Part shown: in pieces, positions 42,823 to 45,590 of the stretch | Position numbering within the stretch: the first letter of the stretch is position 1 | Layout of the letters: the number at the start of each line of letters is the position of its first letter | Assembly (NCBI GenBank): GCA_017463445.1 | Contig: JAFTPF010000073.1 | Span: forward strand, 1 to 49,308 | DNA: 49,308 nt | Reading direction: 5' to 3' | Source: Clostridia bacterium | Lineage (GTDB): Bacteria; Bacillota; Clostridia; Oscillospirales; CAG-272 | Notes under the pieces: model-generated | Databases searched by the model: none | Told to the model about the DNA's origin: nothing | What the model saw: only the letters and a program-made list of their open reading frames with translations | Program-made: the position numbers and the translations under genes

Positions 42823-42911
42823 AAAAAGTTCTCTCCGAATCATATATAATATAAAGAAGAAAATCGAATGTGAAATAGAATCTTCCCACAAGGGAACACT
42901 CTCCTTCCTAC

Positions 42912-42940
42912 ATTATACCATTCAATTTGGCAGAATGCAA
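42912..42940 (-). promoter_or_regulatory. Promoter of the multidomain surface protein
   Basis: On the minus strand TTGCAT (42935-42940), 17-bp spacer, TATAAT (42912-42917). The 321-bp gap 42823-43143 holds this promoter and the divergent rubrerythrin promoter, and no gene. Confidence 0.75.
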
Positions 42941-43046
42941 CAGGAACAATTGTTAATTTTTCGAAAGAACGCATCCAATTATTTGAAAAGTGTCGAAAAG
43001 GCGAATGAGTTCACATTTTGTTTACAAAATATCTTGCAAAACCCTA

Positions 43047-43082
43047 TTGACAAATACAGAATCTATGTTATAATTATGATAA
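43047..43082 (+). promoter_or_regulatory. Rubrerythrin promoter with PerR box
   Basis: TTGACA (43047-43052) and TATAAT (43069-43074), 16-bp spacer. Over the -10 lies TTATAATTATGATAA (43068-43082), which differs at one base from the 15-bp PerR box TTATAATNATTATAA. Binding there would block the promoter until peroxide inactivates PerR. No perR gene is in the window. Confidence 0.75.
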
Positions 43083-43143
43083 CAGTAATCATTCCTAAAA
43101 ATCAACAAGGCAAAGGAATGAAATAATAATTGAGAGGTAAGTT

Positions 43144-43683
43144 ATGGCAAAGTATGTATGTCCCGTTTGCGGTTATGTTTATGAAGGCGAGAACGCTCCC
43201 GAGAAATGTCCCATTTGCGGCAAAGATATGGTAAAGGAAGAGGCTGAGAATAAGACCTGGGCAGCCGAGCACATTGTAGGCGTTGCACAGGGCGCACCCG
43301 AAGATATTATGGAAGATCTCCGCGCCAACTTCAACGGCGAGTGCATGGAAGTTGGTATGTATCTGGCAATGGCAAGAGTGGCACACCGCGAGGGCTATCC
43401 CGAGATCGGTCTCTACTGGGAGAAGGCAGCTTGGGAAGAGGCTGAGCACGCCGCTAAGTTCGCAGAGCTGCTGGGCGAGGTCCTCACCGATTCCACCAAG
43501 AAGAATCTGCAGATGAGAGTAGACGCCGAGAACGGCGCTACCGCAGGCAAGACCGACCTTGCAAAGCGCGCAAAGGCGCTGAACCTGGACGCAATCCACG
43601 ATACCGTTCACGAGATGGCCCGCGACGAGGCAAGACACGGCAAGGCATTCGAGGGTCTGCTGGCAAGATATTTCAAGGACTGA
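43144..43683 (+). CDS. Rubrerythrin with N-terminal rubredoxin domain (reverse rubrerythrin)
   Basis: A 179-residue cytoplasmic protein that reduces hydrogen peroxide (and probably oxygen) at a non-haem diiron site. The rubredoxin-like domain is at the N-terminus (Cys 6, 9, 22, 25 in [23 protein letters not shown]), the order of the reverse rubrerythrins, opposite to classical rubrerythrin. The four-helix diiron domain follows: Glu66 in [21 protein letters not shown] (Glu99, His102) and [21 protein letters not shown] precedes the ATG. The gene is first behind the PerR-box promoter and 118 bp before the fusion gene, whose C-terminal half is a close copy. Confidence 0.95.
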
Positions 43684-43704
43684 TCGTAGTCTGATCCGTA
43701 AAGT

Positions 43705-43730
43705 TACCCGCAGTTATATAACTGCGGGTA
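43705..43730. terminator. Perfect palindrome after the rubrerythrin gene
   Basis: TACCCGCAGTTA (43705-43716) and TAACTGCGGGTA (43719-43730) form a 12-bp stem. No T-tract follows, so it may be an attenuator or RNA end-stabilising hairpin in the transcript rather than a full terminator. Confidence 0.55.
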
Positions 43731-43734
43731 TAGT

Positions 43735-43773
43735 CGCATAGCGACGGCGCATAGCGACAGCGCATAGCGACGG
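43735..43773 (+). repeat. Three tandem 13-bp repeats
   Basis: Three adjacent copies of CGCATAGCGACGG (third position before the end A in the middle copy) at 43735, 43748 and 43761. Each can fold as GTCGC-ATA-GCGAC or GCGC-ATA-GCGAC. They lie between the two rubrerythrin genes, 28 bp before the fusion start. Confidence 0.85.
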
Positions 43774-43801
43774 CATACTATGATCGAAATGAGGGACGAA
43801 C

Positions 43802-45010
43802 ATGAATCCGAAGGCATTATATAACATCACCTACGGCGTTTACCTGCTGTCTGCTAAAGAGGATGGCAAGGATAACGCCTGCATTATCAACACCGCCGTG
43901 CAGGTGGCAAACAATCCCACTCGCGTCTCCATCGCAGCTATTAAGGGCAATCTCACTCACGATATGATTCTGCGCACGGGAGTGTGCAATCTGTCCGCCA
44001 TCACCACCGACGCCGATTTCTCGCTCTTTAAGCATTTCGGTATGCAGTCGGGCAGAGATGTGGACAAATTCGCCGATTTTTCCGATGTGGTGCGGAGTGA
44101 GAACGGACTGTACTATCTCACCAAGTGGTCCAGCGCGTTTTTGTCGCTGAAGATCACAAAGTCCCACGATCTGGGCAGTCACACCCTCTTCATTGGTGAG
44201 GTTGTGGACGGAGAAGTGCTGTCGGCAAACGACAACTGCACCTACGGCTATTACCAGACCGTTATCAAAGCTGCTGCACCCAAGCCCGCCGCCAAGACCG
44301 GCTGGCGTTGCAAGGTCTGCGGTCACGTCTACGAGGGCGAGAACCTGCCTGCCGATTACGTCTGCCCGCTGTGCAAGCACGGTGCCGAGGATTTTGAGAA
44401 AATCGGCGGCGAGCCTGCGGCTGTTCCTGCATCTGCTCCGGTTGCCCCCGCTCCTGCGGCAGGCGGAAAGAAGTACGTTTGTGCCATCTGCGGCTACGTT
44501 CACGAAGGCGACCAAGCTCCCGATAAATGCCCCATCTGTAACGCGCCTGCGGAAAAGTTCACCCTGCAGAGTGACGACCGCACTTGGGCGGCGGAGCACG
44601 TGGTAGGCGTGGCAAACGGTGCGCCCGAGGACATCATCGCCGACCTGCGGGCGAACTTCAATGCCGAGTGTATGGAAGTGGGTATGTATCTGGCAATGGC
44701 GCGGGTCGCACACCGCGAGGGCTATCCCGAGATCGGCAAGTACTGGGAAAAGGCGGCATGGGAAGAAGCAGAGCACGCCGCAAAGTTTGCAGAGCTGCTG
44801 GGCGACATCGTCACCGGCTCCACCGAGCAGAACCTGCGTGTCCGCGTGGACGCCGAGTTCGGTGCTACCGCCGGCAAGTTTGACCTTGCAAAGCGCGCTA
44901 AGGCGCTGAATCTGGATGCGATTCATGATACCGTGCATGAAATGGCACGGGACGAGGCAAGACACGGCAAGGCATTCGAGGGATTTTTAAAGAGATATTT
45001 TGGTAAGTAA
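43802..45010 (+). CDS. Four-domain fusion: flavin reductase - rubredoxin - rubredoxin - rubrerythrin
   Basis: 402 residues in one intact frame. About 1-158 is a flavin reductase-like FMN-binding domain (MNPKALYNITYGVYLLSAKE, NNPTRVSIAAIKGN) as in high-molecular-weight rubredoxin. About 167-200 is rubredoxin 1 (Cys 170, 173, 188, 191). An Ala/Pro linker (201-222) follows. About 223-255 is a second rubredoxin (Cys 227, 230, 243, 246), and 260-402 a diiron domain with Glu289, Glu322-His325 and Glu385-His388. Electrons would pass from NAD(P)H through FMN and rubredoxin to the diiron site, giving a self-sufficient peroxide/oxygen reductase; this is inference. GAGGGAC precedes the ATG. The C-terminal half is nearly a copy of the upstream gene, so fusion followed duplication. 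Confidence 0.93.
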   Translation: MNPKALYNITYGVYLLSAKEDGKDNACIINTAVQVANNPTRVSIAAIKGNLTHDMILRTGVCNLSAITTDADFSLFKHFGMQSGRDVDKFADFSDVVRSENGLYYLTKWSSAFLSLKITKSHDLGSHTLFIGEVVDGEVLSANDNCTYGYYQTVIKAAAPKPAAKTGWRCKVCGHVYEGENLPADYVCPLCKHGAEDFEKIGGEPAAVPASAPVAPAPAAGGKKYVCAICGYVHEGDQAPDKCPICNAPAEKFTLQSDDRTWAAEHVVGVANGAPEDIIADLRANFNAECMEVGMYLAMARVAHREGYPEIGKYWEKAAWEEAEHAAKFAELLGDIVTGSTEQNLRVRVDAEFGATAGKFDLAKRAKALNLDAIHDTVHEMARDEARHGKAFEGFLKRYFGK

Positions 45011-45026
45011 TGGCCCGTATTGGGTA

Positions 45027-45057
45027 GGGTGAAGCATAAGCTTCACCCTTATTTTTT
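45027..45057 (+). terminator. Terminator of the rubrerythrin transcript
   Basis: GGGTGAAGC-ATAA-GCTTCACCC (45027-45048) followed by TTATTTTTT, 16 bp after the fusion stop. Confidence 0.92.
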
Positions 45058-45148
45058 ATATAGTTTCAATTAATATGTAACACTTTAGTTTGCGATGTGT
45101 ATATAAAAATGTAGACATAACAAAACACAAATAAAGGAGAATAATACT

Positions 45149-45505
45149 ATGAACGAAATCAATATCAAGAAAATGGAAGAATTGCTGAGCAACGAAGAAT
45201 TTGCACAGAAAATTGCAGATGCAGGATCTTATGAAAATGCATACAAGCTTTTTATCGAAAATGATGTAGCTGTCACGTATGAAGAGTTTATTGGCTTTAT
45301 TAACGAAACCGGAAAAACGCTAAAAGCTACCGGATTGATTTCTGATGGTGGAGAAGTTGGTCCCGAATTGCTTGATTTGGTTAGTGGTGGTGGAAAAGGC
45401 GCGGCAATTTTCACTTGGGTTGTTGCAGGTGTGGCTGCATCTGTATGTCCTCCTGCTGGTTTTGCGCTTTGGCTTGCTGGCGGATTGGTCTGGAACGCAA
45501 AATAA
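45149..45505 (+). CDS. Bacteriocin/RiPP-like precursor with Nif11-like leader
   Basis: 118 residues in two parts. Residues 1-82 look like a Nif11-type leader: helix IKKMEELLSNEEFAQKIADA, then NAYKLFIENDVAVTYEEFIGF, ending in GPELLDLVSGGG, a double-glycine-type cut site (Gly80-82). Residues 83-118 are a hydrophobic, Gly-rich core of 36 residues (KGAAIFTWVVAGVAASVCPP, then AGFALWLAGGLVWNAK) with a single Cys100 and GxxxG-like spacing, like membrane-active bacteriocins. AAAGGAG lies upstream of the ATG with good spacing. No modification enzyme, C39 peptidase-transporter or immunity gene is adjacent, so it is an orphan precursor or acts with machinery elsewhere. Base composition is more A+T-rich than the rubrerythrin genes. 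Confidence 0.7.
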   Translation: MNEINIKKMEELLSNEEFAQKIADAGSYENAYKLFIENDVAVTYEEFIGFINETGKTLKATGLISDGGEVGPELLDLVSGGGKGAAIFTWVVAGVAASVCPPAGFALWLAGGLVWNAK

Positions 45506-45534
45506 GAAGATACAACTAATTCTTTTCAGAAAGT

Positions 45535-45590
45535 GTCGATACGAAGCTCCACACGGTAAGGCGTTCGAGAGATTTTTGAGGAGATATTTT
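45535..45590 (+). pseudogene. 3'-end remnant of a further rubrerythrin copy
   Basis: This short stretch translates as RYEAPHGKAFERFLRRYFS. It matches the last residues of both upstream genes ([19 protein letters not shown]), and the DNA match is strong (GGTAAGGCGTTCGAGAGATT against GGCAAGGCATTCGAGGGATT). It is preceded by unrelated sequence, so only the final 18 codons of a copy survive. The precursor gene sits exactly between the intact fusion gene and this remnant. Confidence 0.8.

Follow-up and report, generated by a model that had tools for sequence, protein, structure and literature searches.

A Reverse Rubrerythrin Encoded in One Frame with a Putative Flavin Reductase–Rubredoxin Donor Module in a Clostridia Bacterium

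Introduction

High-molecular-weight rubredoxin (Hrb) of Moorella thermoacetica consists of a flavin-reductase module followed by one rubredoxin, and its gene is clustered with rubrerythrin and flavodiiron genes. Clostridia such as Clostridioides difficile scavenge peroxide and oxygen with reverse rubrerythrins, and the literature has left open which protein donates electrons to these enzymes. According to a 2020 study, when Escherichia coli donors are supplied, C. difficile revRbr1 reduces H2O2 at 2.1 per s and O2 at 1.2 per s, revRbr2 does so at 7.7 and 2.0 per s, respectively, and their natural electron donor is stated to be unknown (PMC7482061). The same study gives Glu67/His70 and Glu130/His133 as the predicted diiron ligands of revRbr1 and reports that PerR represses rbr3A/B in Clostridium acetobutylicum (PMC7482061). 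The class F flavodiiron protein of C. difficile (FDP_F, CD1623) is reported to be a single chain that passes electrons from NADH to a diiron site via a short rubredoxin without any partner (PMC6033852). HydR of Clostridium perfringens is likewise reported to function alone as one chain and to reduce H2O2 (PMC11926857).

Here, we analyze a gene that appears to join an Hrb-like module to a reverse rubrerythrin. It lies in a 49,308-nucleotide stretch of DNA from a Clostridia bacterium (contig JAFTPF010000073.1), which we refer to as the window.

Results

Domains and ligands of the fusion protein

The fusion gene occupies positions 43802–45010 of the plus strand as one stop-free frame of 402 aa, and all of its modules are given below in plus-strand coordinates. 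Residues 1–158 (43802–44275) form a flavin-reductase module (PF01613), for which Pfam matches Flavin_Reduct at residues 7–155 with 91.5 bits (cut-off 27). The nearest solved structure to this module is the top PDB match, 1i0r (E 4e-23), an archaeal ferric reductase. Rubredoxin 1 (residues 166–203, 44297–44410) is assigned from the spacing of Cys170, Cys173, Cys188, and Cys191; the NCBIfam rubredoxin model matches residues 180–200 under its cut-off. Pfam reports two RUBY_RBDX stretches (92.7 bits, cut-off 26.5), giving a position for the best stretch only, and the other is presumably at rubredoxin 1. An Ala/Pro linker follows (residues 204–222, 44411–44467), which holds no ATG, GTG, or TTG in frame and resembles the remainder of the gene in GC content and folding. 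Rubredoxin 2 (residues 223–257, 44468–44572) is identified by RUBY_RBDX at residues 225–253 and by Cys227, Cys230, Cys243, and Cys246. The chain ends in a reverse-rubrerythrin diiron four-helix module (residues 258–402, 44573–45007; PF02915), matched by Pfam Rubrerythrin at residues 282–353 with 45.3 bits (cut-off 22.8). A first-pass annotation of this DNA had claimed four domains with their ligands in one open frame, and this holds: the 402 aa are stop-free, the Pfam modules are present, and the eight Cys are exactly where it had placed them.

In an alignment of 11 fusions (A1), the candidate ligands Glu289, Glu322, His325, Glu352, Glu385, and His388 are invariant. By sequence, the Glu322/His325 and Glu385/His388 pairs are 63 residues apart, a spacing identical to that of the revRbr1 ligand pairs. 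Ala355, also invariant among the fusions, sits at the position where classical rubrerythrin has the second Glu of helix C. Two CxxC motifs 12 residues apart (C227/C230 and C243/C246) lie N-terminal to PF02915, and this arrangement, with the predicted ligand pairs E322/H325 and E385/H388, is that of a reverse rubrerythrin. The order of a PF01613 module and then a Cys4 rubredoxin is that of Hrb. Pfam found in the 402 aa neither the metallo-β-lactamase and flavodoxin core of flavodiiron classes F, G, and H nor the [FeFe] hydrogenase domain that marks HydR. Among the 33 PDB matches listed, and among the best 60 of 98 in a second search, no best stretch covers both the flavin-reductase and the diiron parts. 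As judged from its sequence, the protein is a reverse rubrerythrin that also carries an Hrb-type donor module.

Recurrence and selection

Fusions of a flavin reductase to a reverse rubrerythrin occur in 17 distinct genomes, the window's included. Full-length fusions were found in at least 5 of 196 genomes of the window's family (the four others being 58–86% identical), 3 of 5 genomes of its genus (the window's genome, G000, with G139 and G182), at least 4 of 394 genomes of its order (the fourth being G229), at least 1 of 391 genomes of its class (the window's own), and at least 6 of 400 genomes of another family, f13; these samples overlap. The order, class, and f13 searches scored at most four candidates per genome, and in these and in the family search the counts refer to the matches listed; fusions whose flavin-reductase part is weak can therefore be missed, and the counts are lower bounds. 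Some match was returned for 192 of the 196 family genomes, those listed being mostly a stand-alone reverse rubrerythrin or a flavin reductase–rubredoxin in another context. Among the best 80 matches in a scan of named genomes, the same fusion is present in Pseudoflavonifractor sp. MSJ-37 (taken as G355, with matching coordinates) and in metagenome assemblies. The arrangement is rare, not unique. The annotation's statement that known Clostridia have these parts only as separate proteins or pairs is not supported, given these genomes and a RefSeq flavin reductase–rubredoxin–classical rubrerythrin from Roseburia sp. 831b (WP_075681311.1), and the search that it had suggested for the same domain order yielded fusions of this kind in 16 genomes besides the window's. 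We found no description of this fusion among the papers listed in the open-licence literature, a weak result, as most subscription papers lie outside it.

Selection was analyzed in four genomes (the window's G000, G182, G139, and G107). Among the three genus members, G000, G182, and G139, dN is 0.04–0.16 per module and 0.22–0.30 in the linker, with dS ranging from 0.64 up to saturation; between G000 and G107, dN is 0.12–0.24 in the modules and 0.53 in the linker. Purifying selection acts on each module when the window is compared with its closest relatives. The window comes from a draft assembly of 147 contigs, in which an assembly or sequencing error could merge two genes into one frame. We reject this and consider it extremely improbable, given the same kind of fusion in 16 further genomes, among them Pseudoflavonifractor sp. 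MSJ-37, which is not labeled a metagenome assembly, and given the low dN across all modules. The four other full-length fusions in the family, together with the low dN of each module, thus argue that the frame is no accident of assembly.

A plasmid origin was also rejected, as 0 of 11 matching plasmid records reach 80% query cover. A single origin of all fusions is unsupported: the reverse-rubrerythrin tree requires eight changes, at least two of them forced by starred branches (this is a quick tree in which 44 of 87 inner branches are weak), and a flavin-reductase tree including the other architectures requires five, at least two of them forced.

Putative operon and regulation

A free-standing reverse rubrerythrin of 179 aa (43144–43683, plus strand; Pfam Rubrerythrin and RUBY_RBDX) lies 118 nt upstream of the fusion on the same strand and is 80% identical to fusion residues 224–400. 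It is preceded on the plus strand by a sigma-70-type promoter, TTGACA-16-TATAAT (43047–43074), with 12 of 12 consensus matches, in a region (42900–45300) where 10 promoter-like sites were found against 2.5 expected from shuffles. Overlapping the −10 element is a PerR-box-like site (43068–43082, plus strand) with one mismatch to the consensus TTATAATNATTATAA; it is the sole match in the window at up to two mismatches, with 0.02 expected by chance. A putative box thus lies at the promoter, as in genes of a PerR regulon. The plus-strand promoter-like sites listed include none in the interval separating the free reverse rubrerythrin from the fusion. Downstream of the fusion, a hairpin (45026–45049, plus strand) with a 10-pair stem followed by TATTTTTTAT resembles an intrinsic terminator, and the number of terminator-like sites in 42900–45300 is not above chance (2 found versus 3.0 in shuffles). 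The fusion gene seems to stand second in an operon running from promoter and PerR-like box through the free reverse rubrerythrin and the fusion to the hairpin, and we infer that the two genes are cotranscribed. A PerR-like box also lies upstream of the free copy in G182 (one mismatch) and G139 (two mismatches) and is not kept in G355 or G229 (five mismatches each). A PerR box at all fusions was rejected, since of the reverse-rubrerythrin fusions examined outside the genus only that of G547 has fewer than three mismatches.

Two further features flank the fusion. At 43700–43780, in the spacer that separates the fusion from the free copy, a 22-nt hairpin, CCCGCAGTTATATAACTGCGGG, which lacks a T run, is followed by short repeats GCATAGCGAC. 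On the 3′ side, a 50-nt relic of a reverse-rubrerythrin 3′ end (45541–45590, plus strand) is 82% identical to 44952–45001 (blastn E 2e-8 over 40 nt), and a 118-aa frame (45149–45502) preceded by AAAGGAG and without a Pfam match lies between the fusion gene and the relic. The interval 45050–45590 resembles the product of an insertion event in which the 3′ end of the fusion gene was duplicated.

Electron donors in the genome

The donor search covered flavin reductase–rubredoxin modules, PF00301 (rubredoxin), and PF18267 (Rubredoxin_C) in a genome of 147 contigs and 99.5% completeness. No further flavin reductase–rubredoxin module was found besides the fusion, and there were 0 matches to PF00301 and PF18267; among 14 control genomes, PF00301 matched in 7 and PF18267 in 4. 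PF00301 could miss a free short rubredoxin, because it does not match even the genome's own short rubredoxins; searches with short rubredoxin domains in the query detected no further one in this genome at E up to 0.001. Contig C122 encodes a remote flavin reductase (26% over residues 37–137).

Two other proteins of this genome need a donor: the free reverse rubrerythrin and a flavodiiron–rubredoxin protein, encoded by a separate gene and without a flavin-reductase part. Because no other flavin reductase–rubredoxin was found, the fusion may also feed both. Arguing from this absence, the fusion would be the best donor candidate for all three acceptors. The first-pass annotation had proposed that electrons could run from NAD(P)H to peroxide or oxygen without a soluble carrier. 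Analogy with measured proteins favors such an internal path; as the whole story it is doubtful, given the other acceptors and the lack of another detected donor.

Variant architectures of the donor module

Of 13 fusions compared, 10 consist of flavin reductase, rubredoxin, and the rubredoxin of the reverse rubrerythrin. Three rubredoxins in tandem are found in the fusions of G229 and G547, the latter gene running off its contig, and the G549 protein is still fused with rubredoxin 1 missing. At the G229 locus (L194, 796–2106), the three rubredoxins are consecutive between the flavin reductase and the diiron module.

The donor module is fused to a classical rubrerythrin at four loci (G064, G127, G022, and Roseburia sp. 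831b) and to a flavodiiron protein in other genomes. The Roseburia fusion is annotated in RefSeq (WP_075681311.1) simply as "rubrerythrin"; its gene follows an annotated transcriptional repressor and is surrounded by oxidative-stress genes, with those for desulfoferrodoxin, YaaA, and thiol peroxidase nearby. Two other loci illustrate the range of arrangements: at L033 (5021–6328), one 435-aa frame with a junction start encodes flavin reductase, rubredoxin, a small Cys4 domain, and classical rubrerythrin, and at L039, a flavodiiron–flavin reductase is followed by three rubredoxins before the contig end cuts the gene. Unfused neighbors also occur, with a flavin reductase–rubredoxin gene directly before a reverse rubrerythrin (G548) or a classical rubrerythrin (G162), or with the reverse rubrerythrin gene preceding it (G551). 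Exactly one flavin reductase–rubredoxin module is present in 20 of 23 genomes (that of G549 being without the rubredoxin part), while two are present in G107 and none in G190 or G065; these genomes were picked mostly because they or their kin carry a fusion. The pattern resembles that of a single donor module in each genome that has become attached to differing acceptors.

Within the window's genus, the flavodiiron protein carries both flavin reductase and rubredoxin in G035 and G096, which have no fusion, and rubredoxin only in G000, G139, and G182, which have one. This distribution is suggestive of fusion-bearing members having transferred the flavin-reductase module off their flavodiiron protein. 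Such a transfer was not upheld, since both occur in G107 and no direction can be read from the flavodiiron tree.

Junction starts and separate reverse-rubrerythrin copies

An in-frame ATG with a Shine–Dalgarno sequence is present at the junction of 9 of the 17 reverse-rubrerythrin fusions and of all four classical-rubrerythrin fusions, where the next module's own gene would begin. Shine–Dalgarno matches of at least 5 nt precede 13 of 15 linker ATGs versus 14 of 157 other internal in-frame ATGs, and matches of at least 6 nt precede 11 of 15 versus 2 of 157; the weakest at a junction is AAAGG in G195. The 13 junction sites fold weakly, with a median energy at the 3.5th percentile relative to the in-frame positions within each gene (28th in G550), and are mostly open, with a median at the 4th percentile (less so in G022, 52nd; G549, 37th; G1189, 24th; and G064, 17th). 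The equivalent place in the eight genes without a junction start, which we call sealed, is unremarkable, with medians at the 40th (energy) and 67th (openness) percentiles. Of six junction-start genes checked, five have a site whose surroundings are clearly A+T-richer than the gene and thus resemble intergenic DNA; those in G550 are barely so (48% versus 51% GC). In G545/G546 and in G373/G1189/G982, the junction site is kept despite changes in the surrounding linker. The junction start likely derives from read-through of a former intergenic region, and it is possible that it is a mere relic.

All eight sealed genomes, the window's included, have a separate reverse rubrerythrin directly upstream of the fusion, of which only the tail is on that contig, at the contig end, in G107 and G1221. 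The searched assemblies of the nine junction-start genomes yielded no further complete copy of a reverse rubrerythrin; four of these assemblies have completeness figures (G195, 86%; G982, 84%; G1189, 78%; G373, 98%); a 27-residue reverse-rubrerythrin fragment occurs in G982, and remote matches at 31–36% occur in G545, G982, and G1189. The pattern was seen in the first 13 genomes, and the last four, found later, conform. Fisher's test of the 8-versus-9 split gives p 4e-5. The sealed group requires one change on the flavin-reductase tree of the 17 fusions (support 77/89), and we therefore do not count the split, a single independent contrast, as independent evidence.

Fused and upstream reverse rubrerythrins are 96.6% identical in G355, 97.9% in G993, and 78–80% in G000, G139, and G229, a comparison that leaves out G182. 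Relative to the window, the G993 fusion is 67% alike in its reverse-rubrerythrin module and 79% in its flavin reductase–rubredoxin, and for this reason its catalytic module was probably exchanged with its neighbor. At the G993 locus (L260), both the fused and the upstream copy belong to a long-loop type that differs from the window's, whereas the flavin reductase of the fusion is of the window type, probably a case of module replacement or gene conversion.

Discussion

The modules, their ligands and conservation, the gene order, and the lack of another recognized donor can be read from the DNA itself. We consider it probable that the gene encodes a peroxide- and oxygen-reducing reverse rubrerythrin with its own NAD(P)H-driven electron supply, which would also serve as a hub for other acceptors; the cofactors, electron path, activity, PerR control, and role in trans are what we infer. 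NAD(P)H would reduce the FMN of the flavin-reductase module, from which single electrons would pass to rubredoxin 1. The flexible Ala/Pro linker would allow rubredoxin 1 to reach rubredoxin 2, which would reduce the diiron site, where H2O2 and, more slowly, O2 would be converted to water. Support for this internal path from NAD(P)H to diiron comes by analogy with the class F flavodiiron protein and with reverse rubrerythrins given a foreign NADH/rubredoxin donor. The fusion would be produced together with the free reverse rubrerythrin from one operon bearing the PerR-like box. It would probably reduce this protein and the separate flavodiiron–rubredoxin protein in trans, as a hub and not only a closed circuit; the trans role is probable because the fusion carries the only flavin reductase–rubredoxin module found in the genome.

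The protein might instead be a self-sufficient enzyme only, using its electrons in cis while the neighboring reverse rubrerythrin and the flavodiiron protein draw on other donors. Class F flavodiiron proteins are reported to function alone from NADH (PMC6033852), and the Ala/Pro linker is compatible with an intramolecular tether. We nevertheless regard this restriction as unlikely: the genome yielded no other flavin reductase–rubredoxin, PF00301, or PF18267 match, and a free copy is directly upstream in 8 of 8 sealed genomes (two seen just as a contig-end tail). All 17 fusion genomes have a separate copy (8) or else a junction start that could make a free form (9), which raises a different possibility, in which the reverse-rubrerythrin tail is mainly an anchor and mixed oligomers with free reverse-rubrerythrin subunits seat the reductase on the rubrerythrin particle, where it feeds its neighbors. 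Fused and free copies that are 96.6% (G355) and 97.9% (G993) identical, as though kept interchangeable, would fit an anchor, but the copies are just 78–80% identical in G000, G139, and G229, the contrast between separate and retained forms is one change on the tree, and likeness between neighbors is equally expected from plain gene conversion. An anchor is thus conceivable, if rather doubtful. Finally, the flavin-reductase part may not drive the diiron site at all, a flavin or ferric reductase and a peroxidase having been joined by chance, as could be suggested by 1i0r, an archaeal ferric reductase, being the nearest solved structure and by the G549 protein remaining fused without rubredoxin 1. 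The flavin reductase–rubredoxin unit is, however, joined to three kinds of diiron scavenger (flavodiiron protein, reverse rubrerythrin, and classical rubrerythrin), and purifying selection acts on the modules of the fusion in the window, leaving a chance joining very unlikely.

Beyond the hub that we favor for the window's protein, a joint reading of all the fusions can be offered tentatively, at somewhat less than even confidence. Junction-start fusions would be two-product genes, the junction Shine–Dalgarno sequence and ATG yielding a free reverse or classical rubrerythrin beside the reductase-tethered form, and lineages without a junction start, such as the window's, would retain an independent free copy within one operon with the fusion. 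A mixed oligomer, in which tethered rubrerythrin is combined with free rubrerythrin, would act as the working unit and would be served by the flavin reductase–rubredoxin module, and this mobile donor module would shift in evolution among flavodiiron protein, classical rubrerythrin, and reverse rubrerythrin. Use of the junction starts would let a single gene supply the enzyme in tethered as well as in free form, which would be economical for a stress enzyme and would make a usable single-gene NADH peroxidase. For the donor question of the reverse rubrerythrins, the fusion, the adjacency, and the shared gene clusters point to the flavin reductase–rubredoxin unit as a concrete donor to test.

Among known systems, Hrb shares the order of flavin reductase and rubredoxin with the fusion and differs in that no diiron module is joined to it. 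revRbr1/revRbr2 of C. difficile and Rbr3A/B of C. acetobutylicum resemble the fusion in their short-spaced N-terminal rubredoxin, diiron module, and equal Glu/His spacing, and in stress regulation, which the PerR-like box here would fit, the C. acetobutylicum genes being PerR-repressed; unlike the fusion, they stand alone and require an external NADH reductase and rubredoxin (PMC7482061). FDP_F (CD1623; PMC6033852) and its Trichomonas homologue (PMC9364112) similarly place an NADH-to-diiron chain with a short rubredoxin in one polypeptide that needs no partner, but combine a metallo-β-lactamase/flavodoxin core with an FAD-containing NADH:rubredoxin reductase and prefer O2. HydR, the [FeFe] hydrogenase–rubrerythrin chimera of C. 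perfringens, also unites electron source, rubredoxins, and rubrerythrin in one chain, whereas its electrons come from H2 via the H-cluster (PMC11926857). The Roseburia protein WP_075681311.1 and its three relatives follow the same logic with the same donor module but carry a classical rubrerythrin, with its rubredoxin C-terminal.
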